Positions 1-8,155 of a DNA stretch of 64,000 nt are shown here, one piece after another (the first letter of the stretch is position 1; the number at the start of each line of letters is the position of its first letter). The stretch lies in contig JABAAL010000012.1 in the NCBI GenBank assembly GCA_014238785.1, positions 1-64,000 on the forward strand. Reading direction: 5' to 3'. Made by a program: the position numbers and the translations under genes. Source of the DNA: Phycisphaerales bacterium. Lineage in GTDB: Bacteria > Planctomycetota > Phycisphaerae > Phycisphaerales > SM1A02. The notes under the pieces were generated by a model. The model was not told the DNA's origin. It saw nothing but the letters and a program-made list of their open reading frames with translations, and searched no databases.

Positions 1-2023
1 CATCAATAGCTCCAAGTTCAGTTGCATCACTCTTGGCAAGTACTTCAAGAGCTTCGATTGGTGTTTTAGAAGCGTGAGCAGCCCAATTTCCATCTGTTCC
101 AAAGGGAAAAACGTTTGTTGTACTTGCTGGAGCATCAAACACGAATGTATCAATTTTCTCAAAAATACGCTCAACTTGATCCGTACCACCCAAGGATATG
201 CAAACAGCGGCTTCATTGAGCAAGCGTAATGTTATGACGTAGACGGGGAGATTGTCACTCCTATGTAACGAGGAAAAGAGTAATTGCCATGTATCAATTT
301 GTTGTCTATCGCTCATAACAGAGAGAAATGAAGCGTTGCTGATCTGTTGCACAGTTTTCTCAATAACCCACCCTGTAGAGAGAGCGCGTGTAATTTCCTG
401 TCTTTGAATTTCTGTTGTATCTAAGCCAATAATATAATCAGTACTAAACCAAGGAGCAATCCCAGAGGCATAGATGATGTTTCCAAGAACAGATAGATCA
501 ACGACAGTGACTCTTGAATCTTTATAGATTGAAACAACACTCTCTCGAAAAGGAAGTGAAGTAATAGTGGAATTCTGGGCGATGATTCGTCCGAGAACAT
601 TACGAGTATTACTATCTCGCAATAGGTCTATGCTAGAGAGTAAAATGAGTTCTACTGTTGCAAGGTAGAGTTTTTGTGAAGATTCTTGATGTTGAATACT
701 TGAAACTGCGAGAATCCATGCTTCCCAAAGTTCAAGTGTTCGTTCATCAAATTCTGTTGTTGAAAATAACTCTACGGCAATGGCTTTGAGCGACTCTTCT
801 CTAGCAGCAGCAGGATCGCATGTACTGACAGAAGCATGTTGAAGGGAGGCTGCATAGGACCGGGCATCTGGAGATAATAATTGGCTGCACTTAAGAGACG
901 CAAGCATTCCGACACTCCACGATTGCTCAAGAACAGAGAGTGGATTGGCTAGTTGGATGGCTGGAGGCTTGATACGTTCTATTAATTGCTGGGAATATTC
1001 ATGCGCCATTTCAGAACGTCGGATGACGTTTACAAACTGGGTGTTAATAAGTTGCAATGTAGTTTCAGATAAAAAAGGCCAGCCTTTAGAAACAGATGAT
1101 ATTGCTTCGTCCCATCGAAGTATCCAATCATCCATTGGCTTGTCGCCTCTAACAAGAGTCTCTTGTATCTCAGTAGCGAGGGCAGACAATTTTTGAGGAA
1201 TTGAAATTGCTACATCACTAAAGTGCAAACTTTTAACATCTACACCAGAAGATTTAAAAGTTGGCACTTCTTTAAATAATGGGACAAACGAGACTTTTGG
1301 AAGATCTATGGTAGTGTCAAGAATAGAACTTATTGTAGTTTTTGAAGGCAATTCAATAACACGTTCTTCTTCACCTGATAATAAAATCGCAGCTCCTAAA
1401 GACAACACGAATAGAGTAAGAATTGCAAAAAAAGCACATAATTTGACGGTCAGCACACTATTGTATTCACTGAAGTCAAGATTAAGTCTCGATGTTGTTG
1501 CCTCCAGAAGAGAATCTATCCTGTTTGGTGGAGGCGCAAGTACAGACCACTCTCTTGTTACTTTGTGCTTGCTCCGTTTTTCAATACAAAGAGGACCATC
1601 TCCACTTCGGGCGGCTTCTGCAAGAGCCTCAAGGATACGGATGAGGCCATTAACGCTAATGTTGTATGACCTTGCAACAGAGACAAGGCGAGATCTACTT
1701 TTTTGATTCCAACCGCCTTCTGCGATGAGCGTTGCAATAATTTTTTTGTCAAGATCAGTTAGTCTAAGGTAACGCTTTTCATTTTTAACTTGAGAAGGCA
1801 CTGATGCGAAAAGTGCGGTTGCTATTTCAGTTAAGTAATTCCGTATTTCTTGTTTAATCGAATCCGTGCAATTTGGATGTAATGTAACTTGGACAATACG
1901 ACGACGAAGTGCCGACTTGATAGCAGCAATTTCAAATCTGTCTCGGGGAACACCAAGTAGGGAGAGCGCGTCATCACTTTCGGATATTCCTAAGATTTCA
2001 CAAGTTCTGCTATTTAAGTCCAT
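1..2023 (-). CDS. Membrane protein with J-domain-like N terminus, truncated by window edge
   Basis: An open frame begins at an ATG whose first base is 2023 and runs without a stop through the left edge, giving at least 674 residues. I do not recognise the family. Residues 15-72 (with LLGVPRDRFE and a following basic helix ending in TLHPN) resemble a degenerate J domain lacking HPD. One hydrophobic segment at about 193-215 predicts a cytoplasmic N domain and a large periplasmic remainder, which looks alpha-helical and has no motif I can name. The start overlaps the end of the preceding gene by 14 bases, so it is the seventh gene of the ExbB/ExbD operon and probably translated by coupling. The C terminus lies outside the window. 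Confidence 0.8.
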   Translation of the reverse strand, partial: MDLNSRTCEILGISESDDALSLLGVPRDRFEIAAIKSALRRRIVQVTLHPNCTDSIKQEIRNYLTEIATALFASVPSQVKNEKRYLRLTDLDKKIIATLIAEGGWNQKSRSRLVSVARSYNISVNGLIRILEALAEAARSGDGPLCIEKRSKHKVTREWSVLAPPPNRIDSLLEATTSRLNLDFSEYNSVLTVKLCAFFAILTLFVLSLGAAILLSGEEERVIELPSKTTISSILDTTIDLPKVSFVPLFKEVPTFKSSGVDVKSLHFSDVAISIPQKLSALATEIQETLVRGDKPMDDWILRWDEAISSVSKGWPFLSETTLQLINTQFVNVIRRSEMAHEYSQQLIERIKPPAIQLANPLSVLEQSWSVGMLASLKCSQLLSPDARSYAASLQHASVSTCDPAAAREESLKAIAVELFSTTEFDERTLELWEAWILAVSSIQHQESSQKLYLATVELILLSSIDLLRDSNTRNVLGRIIAQNSTITSLPFRESVVSIYKDSRVTVVDLSVLGNIIYASGIAPWFSTDYIIGLDTTEIQRQEITRALSTGWVIEKTVQQISNASFLSVMSDRQQIDTWQLLFSSLHRSDNLPVYVITLRLLNEAAVCISLGGTDQVERIFEKIDTFVFDAPASTTNVFPFGTDGNWAAHASKTPIEALEVLAKSDATELGAID

Positions 2024-4496
2024 CAGCCCCCGCCTTTAATTGAACATGTAGGGTTCTCAATTTCGAGCCGTACGGTTCCGTGCCATAATCTGGGTACAGC
2101 AATTCATGTTGGTCTAATAGAGAAAGTGCGCCGATTAGATCAGTCGTTGAAAGTAATTGCATTAAGTTATACCTTGCTTGCAGCCATTGGTCCCCACCTT
2201 TACTGCTTCCAGAAGAAACAGCACGCCAATGAGAAAGCGCTAGGCTCTGGTCTCCAAAAGTTTGCTCAAGCATTGCATTCAATTCAAGGATTCGATTTGT
2301 CTTGGGATAGGCAGCAATAAGCAAGCGCGCGATGCGGAGAGCTTCCATTCCAACTTCTGAAAACTCTTCATTTTCTTCTATCGCCAGTTCATAGCCTGCC
2401 ATACTTGTTTGATACACCAAGGAGAGGTACTGTTCGCTTGCGAGTTCCTCATCTTGCAATTCTGTGAGTACGCGTATTCCAAGTGTATAAAAATCTCTAT
2501 TACTAATTTCATTGTGTTCGAGAATCAAAAGTCGCAAGACAGATTTAGCTGCATGAAGTGTCCATAAATCATTGGGATATTCTAAAATGAATGAAAGTGA
2601 GGCTTGAATAGCGTTATCCGCCTCACCCTTTGAAATCATATACAGGATGTTGCGATATGTAATTTCTTTTTCAAACGCACGAAGATCCATATTTTCTTCT
2701 TTGCGGAGTCTTTCAATGGTTTCTAAAGCCTGGACAGCTGCTGCTTTTCTATTAAGTTGTTGATGAAGTGATATTTCTAAAATGCGTAATGAAATGACAA
2801 GCAATGACTCCTTTTGCTTGGGTGTAAGCTTCTCTGTAATTTGAGACTGTTTAAGAAGCAATTGCAGCGCCACGCTTAAATATTTATTTCCAACATGAGA
2901 TACTTGTGAAGTATGGACATCGGACCACAAACTGTACAGATGGGATGCAGCTTGAATCTGAGAAGCGTGATAGTTTGGATCTGTCGTTGGTACTGAAAGA
3001 AGGTCACTAACAAGTGTTGGATTTGCTGCAATGTTACTCGCGTCACGTACGAGCAACGAAGAGGCCCTTGCACTTAGAGGCCACTGCGATCTATACTTTT
3101 TTATAAGCCCTATTTTAACCTCTTTCAAAGAAGGGCTTAAAGCTTGAATATGGTCTAAACTAACGATAGCCATCCAAAGTGAGTCTTCGTCGTTTTGCCT
3201 TGTAGAAACTGCTTGAAATGCTTCGGAAGCCTGTTCAAAATCTGAAGCATGGTATAAAGAAAGACCGAGCATAAAAAAACAATCGTTTATAAATGCAGTA
3301 AATTCATGAATGTCATCAGAAATCGTAGCTTGTAAAAAAAGTTGAGCAACATCTCTGAATTCATTTCTTTTTGTAAGTTCAAGAACGGGTTCAATGATTT
3401 GCGATTTGTCTGTTAATTTTCTATACGCTAGATCACCAAGTATATAATTAGTAATAAATCCACCACCGGGCAATTCTTCGAACCCATACAAAGAAACTAT
3501 TTCACTTATCATGGCTAACTGATCTAGCTCAATTAAAAGAGCAAGTGCTTCTTGCGCAAGTTCCTTAGCTTTTGGATCGTGCGGACTTTCAAGGGCATGC
3601 ACAGCCGCAAGACGAGCGTACATCAAACGATCGTCATGTTGTGCGCTTGCAAGTGAGTCGCTAATGAGGGGCCAATCGCTATCTTGAATTGCTAAAAAAT
3701 ACTTCCACATTGGAATTTGAGAACGAATAACATCAAACGTATCTTCTTCTTGTAATCGTTGAAAGAAAGGTTCAGAAGCGCCACTGCCGAAAAGGATTTC
3801 CTTGCATAGTGCAATGCCTAGAATCGCCCTTGCACCATATTCTTTTGATTTTAAATCAAAAGATATTTGAGCTAAGGTTGGCTGTTCAGCTTGAATCATA
3901 AATGCAAAATATTGTTCTGCTTCATGCGCCGCTTCAATATTTTGATTATCAAACCAAGCAATATAGTAGTTTGACCATGCAAGTAAAGAAGTTGTCATCC
4001 CAATGAGATCGTAGAGATCAGTTCTTTCTGAAGATCTTTTTAGTTTAGTAAGCAAAGATTTTCTAATAATTACAAGGTCTTTTGCAATTTCCTTGAGTTG
4101 TTTTACTTCGGCTACAGCTTCCGATTTTTTTACATACCTGAGACGATAGTTTTCTAAAAGTTGCTCGGAAGCCATATACCTTGCTCGTAATAACTGGACT
4201 CGCAAAGCAGTGGTGCCGACTTGCTTATTATTTTTGAGTAACGCTGTAGCACGTTGAAGTAACGCAGTATTATCTCGATACTTATCTAATGACAAGAGTC
4301 GTTTGTACACATCAGCGAGTTCATTTGCAGCAATAAACCGTTCTTGTTGACTGCCATGTTGAAGTGAATCTTCAAGGTAGGTAATCAGAAGGTCATCACA
4401 TCCCATTTCAGAAAGCCAGTCTGAGACGTTATCAAATGAAAATGCTGACGAGGCGAGCAGCAGAATTGAGCATGTTTTAAGGAAGAACAGGTACAT
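2010..4496 (-). CDS. Large exported TPR-like repeat protein of Ton/Tol-like operon
   Basis: 828 residues. The N terminus (MYLFFLKTCSILLLASSAFS) is a Sec signal peptide, so the rest should be periplasmic. The body is almost wholly alpha-helical with recurring A/L/Y/F spacing typical of TPR or similar solenoids, suggesting a scaffold; no catalytic motif is visible. The start overlaps the second exbD by 20 bases and the end overlaps the next gene by 14, so it is locked into the seven-gene operon. A second exported helical repeat protein (6022-7050) lies upstream in the same operon. I infer that the two act as periplasmic partners of the ExbB/ExbD motor, but nothing in the sequence identifies a substrate. 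Confidence 0.85.
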   Translation of the reverse strand: MYLFFLKTCSILLLASSAFSFDNVSDWLSEMGCDDLLITYLEDSLQHGSQQERFIAANELADVYKRLLSLDKYRDNTALLQRATALLKNNKQVGTTALRVQLLRARYMASEQLLENYRLRYVKKSEAVAEVKQLKEIAKDLVIIRKSLLTKLKRSSERTDLYDLIGMTTSLLAWSNYYIAWFDNQNIEAAHEAEQYFAFMIQAEQPTLAQISFDLKSKEYGARAILGIALCKEILFGSGASEPFFQRLQEEDTFDVIRSQIPMWKYFLAIQDSDWPLISDSLASAQHDDRLMYARLAAVHALESPHDPKAKELAQEALALLIELDQLAMISEIVSLYGFEELPGGGFITNYILGDLAYRKLTDKSQIIEPVLELTKRNEFRDVAQLFLQATISDDIHEFTAFINDCFFMLGLSLYHASDFEQASEAFQAVSTRQNDEDSLWMAIVSLDHIQALSPSLKEVKIGLIKKYRSQWPLSARASSLLVRDASNIAANPTLVSDLLSVPTTDPNYHASQIQAASHLYSLWSDVHTSQVSHVGNKYLSVALQLLLKQSQITEKLTPKQKESLLVISLRILEISLHQQLNRKAAAVQALETIERLRKEENMDLRAFEKEITYRNILYMISKGEADNAIQASLSFILEYPNDLWTLHAAKSVLRLLILEHNEISNRDFYTLGIRVLTELQDEELASEQYLSLVYQTSMAGYELAIEENEEFSEVGMEALRIARLLIAAYPKTNRILELNAMLEQTFGDQSLALSHWRAVSSGSSKGGDQWLQARYNLMQLLSTTDLIGALSLLDQHELLYPDYGTEPYGSKLRTLHVQLKAGADGLK

Positions 4497-4896
4497 ATGT
4501 CACTTTCTCAAAACCTGAATTTCTTGCTTCTTGAATTGCAGCTACCGCAAATGACACTGGGACAAAGTTGGTAACTCGCACAATAACCCCTGGTTCCTTT
4601 GGAAGAACTTCTAGAAATTGAGCGAGTTGAATCCTGTCTGTGAAACTTCTATCTCCCATTTGGTATACATACTGATTATTTATGCTTGTGACGAGAATAA
4701 TTTGCGGCTCAAAATCATCGACCGTGACGGTGGAACTCTGCTCGACTTTTAATGCAACTTTTAATAGTTCTTCTGGAGTTGCAATAACGGTCGTCACTAT
4801 AAAATAAATTAGTAGCAAAAATGTAACGTCAATCATAGACGACAAATTCAATGCCGAATGCTTTGTTGATGTATGTTTTGCCTTACTAAAATTCAT
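4477..4896 (-). CDS. ExbD/TolR-family proton-channel subunit (second copy)
   Basis: 139 residues with the ExbD/TolR plan: a short basic cytoplasmic tail, one membrane helix at about 22-42 and a periplasmic domain. The membrane Asp essential for proton use in this family is present (D23 in SSMIDVTFLLLIYF). In known Ton, Tol and Mot systems such subunits pair with ExbB/TolQ and convert the proton motive force into movement of a partner protein. The start directly abuts the stop of the first exbD copy. Having two different ExbD genes together is common in planctomycetes and Bacteroidetes and suggests a heteromeric ExbD dimer, which is inference here. Confidence 0.9.
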   Translation of the reverse strand: MNFSKAKHTSTKHSALNLSSMIDVTFLLLIYFIVTTVIATPEELLKVALKVEQSSTVTVDDFEPQIILVTSINNQYVYQMGDRSFTDRIQLAQFLEVLPKEPGVIVRVTNFVPVSFAVAAIQEARNSGFEKVTYVPVLP

Positions 4897-5319
4897 TTAC
4901 GGTTCTTTCGTCGCAATAATTGTTGCCTTCAAGCCATGCTTGCTTAATAACGAAACAATGTCATTTAACGTACCACTCGAGGATGACCCGTCAGACCTTA
5001 TTTTGACATTTTCCCAAGCTAAGTTATTTATCTCTTTCCTATGTTTCAACTCGAGGTCAAGATCGCTTAGAGAAATAGCGCCAATGTTGGAATCAAGAAT
5101 AATATCATTATTGTCTAGTACATTTATAATAATCAAACTCCCGATTTCTATATTTATATCTTCACCAAATTCTTGAGGCAACGCAACATCAACTCTTGCT
5201 TGTTGCGCAAACTGAGCTGCAACCATAAAGAAAATGATCAAGAGGAAGACGATATCAATCATTGGAGTCATTTCAACAACTGGAATAATCACTCGATTTT
5301 GCGAACTCTTAAACGGCAT
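4897..5319 (-). CDS. ExbD/TolR-family proton-channel subunit (first copy)
   Basis: 140 residues. The membrane helix at about 18-40 follows the VEMTPMIDIVFLLIIFF signature, with the proton-carrying Asp at D22. A periplasmic alpha/beta domain fills the rest. It starts 3 bases after exbB and ends immediately before the second exbD, so the three are translated as a unit. It differs from the second copy throughout the periplasmic part, so this is not a recent duplication. It should join ExbB in an inner-membrane motor; the partner it energises is most likely the vWA protein at the head of the operon. Confidence 0.92.
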   Translation of the reverse strand: MPFKSSQNRVIIPVVEMTPMIDIVFLLIIFFMVAAQFAQQARVDVALPQEFGEDINIEIGSLIIINVLDNNDIILDSNIGAISLSDLDLELKHRKEINNLAWENVKIRSDGSSSSGTLNDIVSLLSKHGLKATIIATKEP

Positions 5320-5322
5320 ATA

Positions 5323-6009
5323 TTATCCGTTCGATTCTTCTAAATAGAGCACTAATCGTTCAATTTCAGAAGATGCTTCAGCACTTAAGCCCTCAATTCT
5401 ATTTCTAAAAAAACTAAAAAGAGTGACACAAGGTATTGCAAGAATCAAACCCAACATAGTTGTTACAAGGGCTTCACTAATATTTCCAGCAAGCGCAGAA
5501 TTAGAACTCCCCCCATCGCCTCCAATAGTGTCAAATGCTCCAACCATGCCAAGCACCGTACCCAGAAGACCAAGGAGTGGCGCAACAGTACCAATAAGAC
5601 CCAGTGCATCTGTTGATCTAAATAGGCGAGAAGTTTGATCCTCCCCCGCTTCTTCAAGGGCGCTCTTAATCTCAAACGGGCCAAAAGCAGATCGCTGGTA
5701 TCGCAACAATCCGGGGGCTAAAATACGGGTTAAATACGTGTCATTTAATGGATCAACGCAATAATTCAATGCGTCATCCACTTTCCCCTTTGACAACATT
5801 TCTTCAATGGTAGCGAGTTGCTCTGGGGGAAGAAGCGCTGAGCGCTTCAGTTGAAGGAAGTGCATAACTGCAAGCGCAAGAGCAACCAAACTCAAAGCAA
5901 TAATAATGTACCCAACCGCACCGCCTTTAGAGAGCAATTCTAATTTGGTAGTTTTGTCCTCTACATCATTTGCCTGAGCAACTATAAGTAATACGTACGT
6001 TAGTGACAT
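5323..6009 (-). CDS. MotA/TolQ/ExbB-family proton channel
   Basis: 228 residues with three membrane helices at about 28-52, 132-155 and 172-196, the standard ExbB/TolQ topology with a long cytoplasmic loop between the first and second. The second helix contains GTVAPLLGLLGTVLGM and the third LVTTMLGLILAIP, both family signatures. The N-terminal hydrophobic stretch ending near AQA may be a cleavable signal, as in some ExbB proteins. It sits 12 bases after the TPR gene and 3 before exbD. Role: pentameric stator of a proton-driven inner-membrane motor. Confidence 0.93.
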   Translation of the reverse strand: MSLTYVLLIVAQANDVEDKTTKLELLSKGGAVGYIIIALSLVALALAVMHFLQLKRSALLPPEQLATIEEMLSKGKVDDALNYCVDPLNDTYLTRILAPGLLRYQRSAFGPFEIKSALEEAGEDQTSRLFRSTDALGLIGTVAPLLGLLGTVLGMVGAFDTIGGDGGSSNSALAGNISEALVTTMLGLILAIPCVTLFSFFRNRIEGLSAEASSEIERLVLYLEESNG

Positions 6010-6021
6010 GTTCTAAATTCC

Positions 6022-7050
6022 TTACTTGGAAATCGCTGTGTATAAGAGCGGGTGAGTAGGAAATACACGACGCATTTCCTTTCGAATTCTTTTGGCTTCT
6101 TCTTTAAAACCACTAGTATCTAGTTCATCGGCAAGTAAAAACATCGCTGATCCTGAAAGCCAAGGATTTTCACGTTGGCTATTAGCAGAAATCTTTGCAA
6201 ATAAAAGCATGCCGGCTTTTTTGGAGGATTCATCATCTTTCCTTACTAAACCTAATGCAATAAAATAGTTGATCCAATTTTGTTTCCATAAAGGTGCGCT
6301 GTCAAGTGTTTTCTCAAGAGCAAGAATGCTTAATGGATCTCCATTTGCCGCTGCAATAATGTGCGGCAAAAATTTTCCATCTTCAACACCTGTAACTAGC
6401 GAAACCTTTTCATCTGTGCCTTGCGAAAGTAACACCTTCGCTAAAGAGGATGTAGTTTTCATGGAACTTTGTTTGTATTTTTCAAGAATAACTCTAGCGT
6501 TCTCGTCTACCTGCCAAACGGGCGGAAGATAAGGAGAAAGCAAAGTGGACGAATCTAAAATGGGCAACAATTCAGCAAAAGGTGATTCAACGCCAAATTC
6601 TTCCAACTTCACGGTCTCTAGCCAAGGATGTAGCGCCGCATCAAGTTTTCCTCTGGCCAGATAGCATCGCAGCAAACCTTCGCTAGCAAGTCGAGCATCT
6701 TTTGAATTCGAGCCTTCAAACTCTCTAAATAACAAGGCAAATGATGGCTCAGCGAGTTGTAAATCTCCTCGAAGAAATCTTATTTTAGCTCTCCACAATT
6801 TTTCGCCCTGCGTCAGAAATCTTTGTAGCGCAGGCATCGGGGCTTCTGTTTCAATCGAAGAAATGGTACTCCAAGGAACAAGTGATTGCACTGCGGATTC
6901 TTGTTCTAAAACAACATGTAACCCTTCGATACCCCCGCTTAGTATTCGACATTCGATCGGCGAACGTGCGCCACGCAACGTGAGTGTGTCCGCAGAAGTA
7001 TCTAGGCAACAGAAGGAGAGAGCGACTAGAAAAACACAATGCAACTTCAT
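6022..7050 (-). CDS. Exported TPR-like protein of Ton/Tol-like operon
   Basis: 342 residues. A signal peptide covers about the first 20 residues (MKLHCVFLVALSFCCLDTSA). Residues 22-70 form a small beta-rich module (TLRGARSPIECRILSGG...), like the short SH3-like beta domains found at the start of many planctomycete exported proteins. The rest is helical repeats of TPR type. Its start overlaps the vWA gene end by 4 bases and it ends 12 bases before exbB. It has no catalytic motif. By position I infer a periplasmic adaptor between the vWA protein and the motor or its cargo. Confidence 0.85.
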   Translation of the reverse strand: MKLHCVFLVALSFCCLDTSADTLTLRGARSPIECRILSGGIEGLHVVLEQESAVQSLVPWSTISSIETEAPMPALQRFLTQGEKLWRAKIRFLRGDLQLAEPSFALLFREFEGSNSKDARLASEGLLRCYLARGKLDAALHPWLETVKLEEFGVESPFAELLPILDSSTLLSPYLPPVWQVDENARVILEKYKQSSMKTTSSLAKVLLSQGTDEKVSLVTGVEDGKFLPHIIAAANGDPLSILALEKTLDSAPLWKQNWINYFIALGLVRKDDESSKKAGMLLFAKISANSQRENPWLSGSAMFLLADELDTSGFKEEAKRIRKEMRRVFPTHPLLYTAISK

Positions 7051-8051
7051 GGCGTCGTTCCTGTCTTAACGAACGTATATTTACCACGGGTTGCATTTGC
7101 GATATCACGCAAAAGTTGCTGGGTAGAATTATTACCAAATGCAATGGTGTTTATGACAATAGGCGACTTGCTTGGAATCATCTGAATCAATCGATCTAGT
7201 TTAAATCCAAGACTGTCACCGTCAGTTAAAAAGTAAATAACTTCAGGAAGCGGGTCTAACATAAATGCCATTTCAAAAGCGAGTATCGGATGGGTACCTC
7301 CGGCAGGATTAATTGCTTGAAAATCACGGACCATTTGACGAACGACTGAACGCCTTGCTCTATTCCAACCACGTTGAGACGGTGGTTCAACAACTAATGA
7401 ATGATAGAAGAGGATGTTAAACCGAGCGAAATCTGGCAAGCTTTTTAGGGAAGCTGATAATTCTTCGAGTGCTAAGGCAAGACGATTCGAATTATTCATA
7501 GATCCTGAAATATCTACGATATAACAAAATCGATTACCTGATGATGCGATTCCAAAAAATGAAGCCCCACCACCACCAGAGCCGCCAACTCCAGAACCCA
7601 ATCCAGAAGAACCCCCACCAGAGAGAGATCGTGCTTGAGATTGTGATGTGGATTCTAAAATCGGTCTTGAATCTGGCGATGCTAAAAGAGCTGTAGTTGC
7701 AACTTCTACTTCAAACGCTGCTTCGGTTTGAACCTCTTCAACAGGCTCGGCAACCTTTCCCTCAGGCATATCTTGCAATTGTTCTTCGTCTAAAATAGCA
7801 AATTCAATTTTCGTTGAAACAACGGGAGATGTCCCACCAACAAGTGATCCACCTGAAATTTGTAAGAGAAAACCCATTATGAGGTGAATTAAAATAGATA
7901 CTGCAACCCCCACATAGATTAAATTTAGAATAGTACGTTTCCAGCGAGAGCGCTCCTCAGTGGTATATTTGACAACATCAGAAATAAAATTTTTCTGGCT
8001 GGTACGAATTTGGGACTTTCCCTGATTTGTCGCATTACTAGGTTGTTGCAT
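7047..8051 (-). CDS. TonB-like membrane-anchored von Willebrand A domain protein
   Basis: 334 residues. A basic cytoplasmic tail is followed by one membrane helix at about 41-64 that contains S52-x3-H56, the same S-x3-H spacing that TonB uses in its membrane helix to couple to ExbB. Next come an acidic spacer (about 80-120), a Gly/Ser-rich linker (142-163) and a von Willebrand A domain (about 170-330). The metal-binding MIDAS residues are complete: D180, S182, S184, T253 and D277. There is no TonB C-terminal domain. It heads the operon that encodes ExbB and two ExbD proteins. Reading: a proton-energised transducer whose periplasmic end binds a metal-dependent ligand. The domains are clear; the role is inferred. 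Confidence 0.9.
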   Translation of the reverse strand: MQQPSNATNQGKSQIRTSQKNFISDVVKYTTEERSRWKRTILNLIYVGVAVSILIHLIMGFLLQISGGSLVGGTSPVVSTKIEFAILDEEQLQDMPEGKVAEPVEEVQTEAAFEVEVATTALLASPDSRPILESTSQSQARSLSGGGSSGLGSGVGGSGGGGASFFGIASSGNRFCYIVDISGSMNNSNRLALALEELSASLKSLPDFARFNILFYHSLVVEPPSQRGWNRARRSVVRQMVRDFQAINPAGGTHPILAFEMAFMLDPLPEVIYFLTDGDSLGFKLDRLIQMIPSKSPIVINTIAFGNNSTQQLLRDIANATRGKYTFVKTGTTP

Positions 8052-8080
8052 GTGCTCTCAGCATTTCTGTTTCACTCTGT

Positions 8081-8092
8081 GTATCATGATAC
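8081..8092. promoter_or_regulatory. 12-base perfect palindrome between divergent vWA operon and pyrH
   Basis: GTATCATGATAC is a perfect inverted repeat lying 30 bases upstream of the vWA start and 64 upstream of pyrH. Its size and place fit a dimeric regulator site able to affect either divergent unit. No regulator gene adjoins it and I saw no second copy elsewhere, so it could be chance. Confidence 0.25.
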
Positions 8093-8155
8093 GCTAAGCC
8101 GGTAGACTCATCCCCTATATCTGTAGGGTCAAATACCAAAAATAGGACAATCCCA

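Follow-up and report, generated by a model that had tools for sequence, protein, structure and literature searches.

The Ton and Tol systems are the textbook routes by which inner-membrane energy is sent to the outer membrane. A class of force transducers carrying a von Willebrand A (vWA) domain, the SHLS type, has been predicted by Williams-Jones et al. (2025, Mol Biol Evol, PMC12204202). There these transducers, whose vWA fold follows a disordered linker of about 100 residues, are reported in Planctomycetes with TPR, TolQ and two TolR genes as neighbours, and AlphaFold 3 (AF3) predictions place the transducer on the motor by histidine-mediated docking. The same text has the S-x3-H motif of TonB and TolA binding the motor, and it also proposes a gliding link for vWA transducers.

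An operon of an uncultured marine Phycisphaerales bacterium (phylum Planctomycetota) shares with this class a transmembrane (TM) helix with the Ser/His pair, a linker of about 100 residues and a C-terminal vWA domain, as well as neighbouring genes for a TPR protein, a TolQ-like protein and two different TolR-like proteins (PMC12204202). Judged by every feature of the available description that can be tested on sequence, it belongs to the class. It differs in its layout, as the available text places the vWA gene downstream of TPR-Q-R-R and mentions one TPR gene, whereas here the vWA gene comes first and three extra genes are present, encoding a large exported TPR protein, a bitopic protein in what is termed the J position and a small exported helical protein. 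A second family in that paper, in which vWA proteins carry a pore helix, likewise couples vWA to a TolQ-like pentamer but, as far as described there, replaces ExbD and lacks S-x3-H; both ExbDs and S-x3-H are kept here. On vWA transducers our literature search turned up this paper alone, and on the eight-gene operon nothing. The added genes (large TPR, bitopic J-position and eighth), the gene order, its anchoring at pyrH-frr, the clade-wide synteny and spread, and the occurrence of a six-gene core, in diverged form, in two further genomes of the phylum appear to be undescribed in the papers found and new here.

Organization of the operon

The window analysed is the 64 kb at the start of contig C47, part of a 1.8-Mb genome that, among named relatives, is closest to Phycisphaerales/Phycisphaerae metagenome genomes. 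On its minus strand, from base 8051 to base 2, seven tightly packed ORFs were found. These encode the vWA transducer (7047..8051, 334 aa), a small exported TPR-like protein (6022..7050, 342 aa), an ExbB/TolQ-like proton channel subunit (5323..6009, 228 aa; PF01618, 4.6e-29), two ExbD/TolR-like subunits, ExbD1 (4897..5319, 140 aa; PF02472, 1.3e-18) and ExbD2 (4477..4896, 139 aa; PF02472, 1.2e-15), a large exported helical-repeat (TPR) protein (2010..4496, 828 aa) and the bitopic J-position membrane protein (2..2023, running past base 2), of which the first 674 aa are present. The order given by a sequence-only reading of this DNA was therefore confirmed, as was its statement that all genes overlap or lie within 12 bases of each other: from vWA to J the junctions are a 4-base overlap, gaps of 12 and 3 bases, a direct abutment (0), and overlaps of 20 and 14 bases (−20 to +12 overall). 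Across relatives, most median junctions lie between −4 and −1 bases. An intergenic region (8052..8155, no strand assigned) separates the operon from the divergent pyrH-frr genes and serves as the synteny anchor; a promoter and terminator scan was empty, with no σ70-like match in 8052..8155.

Among the seven proteins, matches above the curated Pfam cut-offs were VWA_3/VWA, MotA_ExbB and, twice, ExbD; both TPR calls fell below cut-off and the J-position protein of the window had no match. No TonB, TolA, TolB, Pal or receptor family was present in the operon proteins, as had been noted beforehand, and Pfam detected no outer-membrane barrel family among them.

The same reading had taken the seven genes for a complete machine, which did not hold. 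Base 1 of the window is base 1 of the contig, which truncates the seventh gene. Another contig of this genome, C36, shares 354 bases with the window end (window 1-354 against L226:1-354) at 92% identity, completes the J gene and adds an eighth gene (L226:1016-1732), which also follows J in relatives. The 92% identity suggests that the assembly forked where strains differ within the J gene. The seven ORFs are read as a single operon, and the full machine would comprise eight genes. Chance assembly is argued against because every close relative with sufficient sequence shows the same order and because pN lies far below pS in the six operon genes tested; a dN/dS ratio cannot be given for most of the genes, synonymous sites being saturated.

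The vWA protein as a probable transducer

The vWA protein has a cytoplasmic N-terminal tail (N-in), one TM helix (approximately residues 43-65), a linker of about 100 residues (~66-163) that is Gly-rich at its end, and a C-terminal vWA domain (~177-328; VWA_3, E 1.4e-8). The Ser-x3-His motor-docking signature lies within the TM helix (S52 to H56; 7884..7898, minus strand) and was invariant in the 26 rows of an alignment (A1). Conservation was further assessed in 80 named vWA loci, which are the closest matches and hence a sample biased to close relatives. Among the vWA proteins of these loci S52 was kept in 73 of 74 and H56 in 72 of 74, with no other TM column above 54/74; the motif is short, and shuffled TM helices yield it by chance in about 5.6 of 71 cases. 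The vWA domain (7068..7523, minus strand) retains D180-x-S182-x-S184, T253 and D277, the residues that form the metal site of vWA domains, and all five residues were kept in 77/77 proteins.

The placing of the vWA protein in the transducer's position, proposed from the sequence alone, is supported because S-x3-H is near-invariant in its TM helix and because its gene adjoins ExbB in 64 of the 65 loci, among the 80 closest, with 2.2 kb of downstream sequence. Like ExbBD-TonB, the operon combines a homologous motor, an S-x3-H helix and a tethered periplasmic transducer. Unlike it, the vWA domain replaces the TonB C-terminal domain (TonB_C gave no match in the vWA protein), two ExbDs are present and the genus lacks receptors.

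The motor subunits

In an alignment to E. coli ExbB (5sv0), T151 and T184 of the operon ExbB align with T148 and T181 (numbers counted from the alignment), and each was kept in 67/67 named loci; the position of E. coli E176 was kept in only 8/67. The TM aspartates Asp22 of ExbD1 and Asp23 of ExbD2 were each present in 64/64. The ExbB threonines and the ExbD aspartates are the residues needed for proton flow. With these, the S-x3-H motif and the vWA metal site all kept, motor and transducer look functional at the sequence level. This bears on a scaffold-only alternative, an envelope assembly of motor and TPR proteins whose vWA member would serve in assembly or sensing and exert no force. Domains of the vWA and TPR kinds are common in assembly factors and orphan S-x3-H vWA copies exist (see below), but a static scaffold would not need channel residues and an S-x3-H kept almost without exception, and this explanation is considered quite unlikely.

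The NCBIfam TolQ and TolR models scored best for ExbB and ExbD1, yet far below cut-off. The operon resembles Tol-Pal in this and in having a TPR partner, as with YbgF/CpoB; it differs in having no TolA C-terminal domain, TolB or Pal. By membership the operon is neither a Ton nor a Tol system, although it very probably works like one.

Candidate exported partners, the J-position protein and the eighth protein

The small TPR protein was modelled with a signal peptide, a five-strand beta domain and a TPR-like alpha solenoid (pLDDT 91.3, pTM 0.87), and it is on this structure model that its TPR assignment rests; against the PDB it gave generic TPR matches, as is typical for repeats. The large TPR protein also carries a signal peptide, with TPR families matched in a minority of its orthologues; it was aligned in 40 rows (A3), and the size of the 20-base overlap of its gene with ExbD2 is conserved across relatives. 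Both TPR proteins are plausible periplasmic partners.

The J-position protein was modelled from an orthologue (L069; pLDDT 83.8) with a membrane helix at 193-222 and an alpha solenoid at 265-915. The model gives a cytoplasmic J-like helical domain, a second helical domain, one TM helix and a long periplasmic alpha solenoid. At full length the protein matched no Pfam family, and a PDB fold search with the model returned generic alpha solenoids only, none with E below 0.001. Of the earlier description as a J-like membrane protein, the membrane helix is predicted by the model and the J domain is weakly supported: the domain has four helices with a frequent His-Pro where the HPD motif of DnaJ would sit, and DnaJ matches were all sub-threshold, with 4/28 members matching in Pfam (best 0.0024) and E values of 0.19 to 1.3 for several J domains of the PDB.

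The eighth gene, 3′ of J in contig C36 and in relatives, encodes a small exported helical-repeat protein. In G021 the J and eighth proteins are fused in a single frame of 1449 aa (L046:9080-13426), from which we infer that the J solenoid and the eighth protein share one side of the membrane.

This set of partners invites comparison with the AglRQS-Glt/Nfs machine of Myxococcus, in which TolQ, two TolRs, periplasmic TPRs and a bitopic linker move surface or envelope cargo. One ExbB with two different ExbDs is comparable to AglR with AglQ/AglS, TPR and large bitopic partners are common to both, vWA adhesins take part in the Myxococcus system (PMC4488436), and the gliding link proposed in the available text of the 2025 paper points the same way (PMC12204202). 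Against this, the operon holds no outer-membrane beta-barrel, and its vWA protein is tethered to the inner membrane rather than being an outer-membrane lipoprotein. A propulsion or cargo machine of this type is unlikely, although AglRQS-like cargo movement ranks as the second choice of function, after envelope organisation.

Conservation and distribution

The conservation of the gene order, suggested as a check by the sequence-only reading, was counted in the closest loci: among those with 9.8 kb of downstream sequence, the TPR, ExbB, large TPR, J and eighth genes were all present in 47/50. Families f1 to f4 all have relatives with this gene order, running divergently from pyrH-frr. As the locus counts rest on the closest matches, an evenly drawn sample of 150 genomes from the class served to gauge the spread: 14 had the J gene, one of them by a marginal match and the others belonging to f1, f2 or f4. 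An ExbB search and gene order add f3. Families f5 and f6, which belong to the same taxonomic order, gave no J gene in this sample.

Outside that taxonomic order the arrangement persists in diverged form. In G156 the vWA, TPR, ExbB, ExbD, ExbD and large TPR genes are followed by a 1201-aa frame that was not recognised and by the eighth gene. L180 and L192, from two further genomes of the Planctomycetota, show a diverged six-gene core whose vWA protein has S-x3-H; after vWA come a beta plus helical exported protein, ExbB and two ExbDs, and the last member, of ~810-840 aa, matches the large TPR weakly. Their exported protein would, by sequence comparison, open with a similar beta segment.

It had been asked at the outset whether homologues of the vWA gene occur mostly without ExbB. 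This is not so among close homologues, though more distant planctomycete vWA proteins with S-x3-H and no ExbB within ~5 kb do occur (L227-L231, L233 and L236). In G202 an ExbB-ExbD-ExbD-large-TPR set (L182) lies apart from the S-x3-H vWA gene (L229).

Receptors and other transducers in the genome

No TonB-dependent receptor and no TonB_C above cut-off was detected in the 13 genus genomes searched. Receptors were found in 9/31 relatives overall, most of which also have TonB_C, and TolB_N was found in 0/31; OmpA-type lipoproteins are present elsewhere in the genome. A Ton-type uptake role, in which the vWA protein would stand in for TonB and open outer-membrane receptors for nutrients, would fit the ExbB/ExbD homology and the S-x3-H helix. 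The absence of receptors, and of TonB_C above cut-off, from the genus genomes searched makes it unlikely, and the operon also lacks a receptor or plug gene; with the pairing of receptors and TonB_C in relatives, this role is regarded as highly improbable.

A second vWA system is present in the same genome (L266:5505-8833, on C6), led by a DoxX-like protein in the order DoxX-vWA-ExbB-ExbD-ExbD, with SIGAH as its S-x3-H and an Omp85/POTRA gene nearby. On contig C9 (L267:5848-7115) a fifth ExbD is followed by a divergent TonB/TolA-like protein of 278 aa with S-x3-H, flanked by surE-like and gyrA-like genes (names from sequence reading). This protein is below the TonB_C cut-off, its G002 relative scoring 18.7 bits against a cut-off of 24.6. 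A third ExbB-like gene (L062:5742-7678, on C11) lies among isoprenoid genes with no ExbD adjoining and is overlapped by a predicted exported protein of 425 aa; it may supply the motor subunit that the L267 locus lacks. The idea that this genome has no transducers besides its vWA systems was dropped because of the ExbD and S-x3-H protein of L267, and the idea that the operon replaces TonB because of family f4, which has operon and TonB together.

Proposed mechanism and function

The gene order, the S-x3-H helix, the channel residues, the metal site, the export or membrane location of the partners and the clade-wide conservation can be read at the level of sequence. It is considered probable that the operon encodes a proton-driven inner-membrane motor coupled to a TonB/TolA-like transducer with a metal-binding vWA working end. 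The complex would presumably have 5:2-type stoichiometry, an ExbB pentamer surrounding an ExbD1/ExbD2 pair, and would move as protons pass at the ExbD aspartates and ExbB threonines. With the vWA helix docked on ExbB through Ser52 and His56, this motion would make the vWA domain pull or reach across the periplasm on its linker of about 100 residues. The metal site would grip a ligand, most likely one of the exported TPR proteins or something that they hold at the peptidoglycan or outer membrane, and the bitopic J-position protein would tie the assembly to the cytoplasm.

The operon encodes no outer-membrane component. Its job, of which envelope organisation of a Tol-like kind rather than receptor-driven uptake is the likeliest, is put forward tentatively as a first choice. 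It is also conceivable, though short of an even chance, that beside Ton and Tol there is a third kind of trans-envelope motor, one of old standing in Planctomycetota. Its core would be six genes (vWA, beta plus TPR protein, ExbB, ExbD, ExbD and large TPR protein), the bitopic cytoplasm-linked protein and the eighth exported protein being additions of the Phycisphaerales clade, and a metal-dependent vWA grip would take the place of the beta-strand addition of TonB/TolA.

The operon offers partner candidates, namely the two TPR proteins, the J-position protein and the eighth protein, for a transducer class without a function, and residues S52, H56, the vWA metal site and D22/D23 make the transducer idea testable. 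Conserved in a genus without TonB-dependent receptors and equipped with a working end unlike those of Ton and Tol, such an operon would identify the motor as a general platform whose heads can be exchanged.
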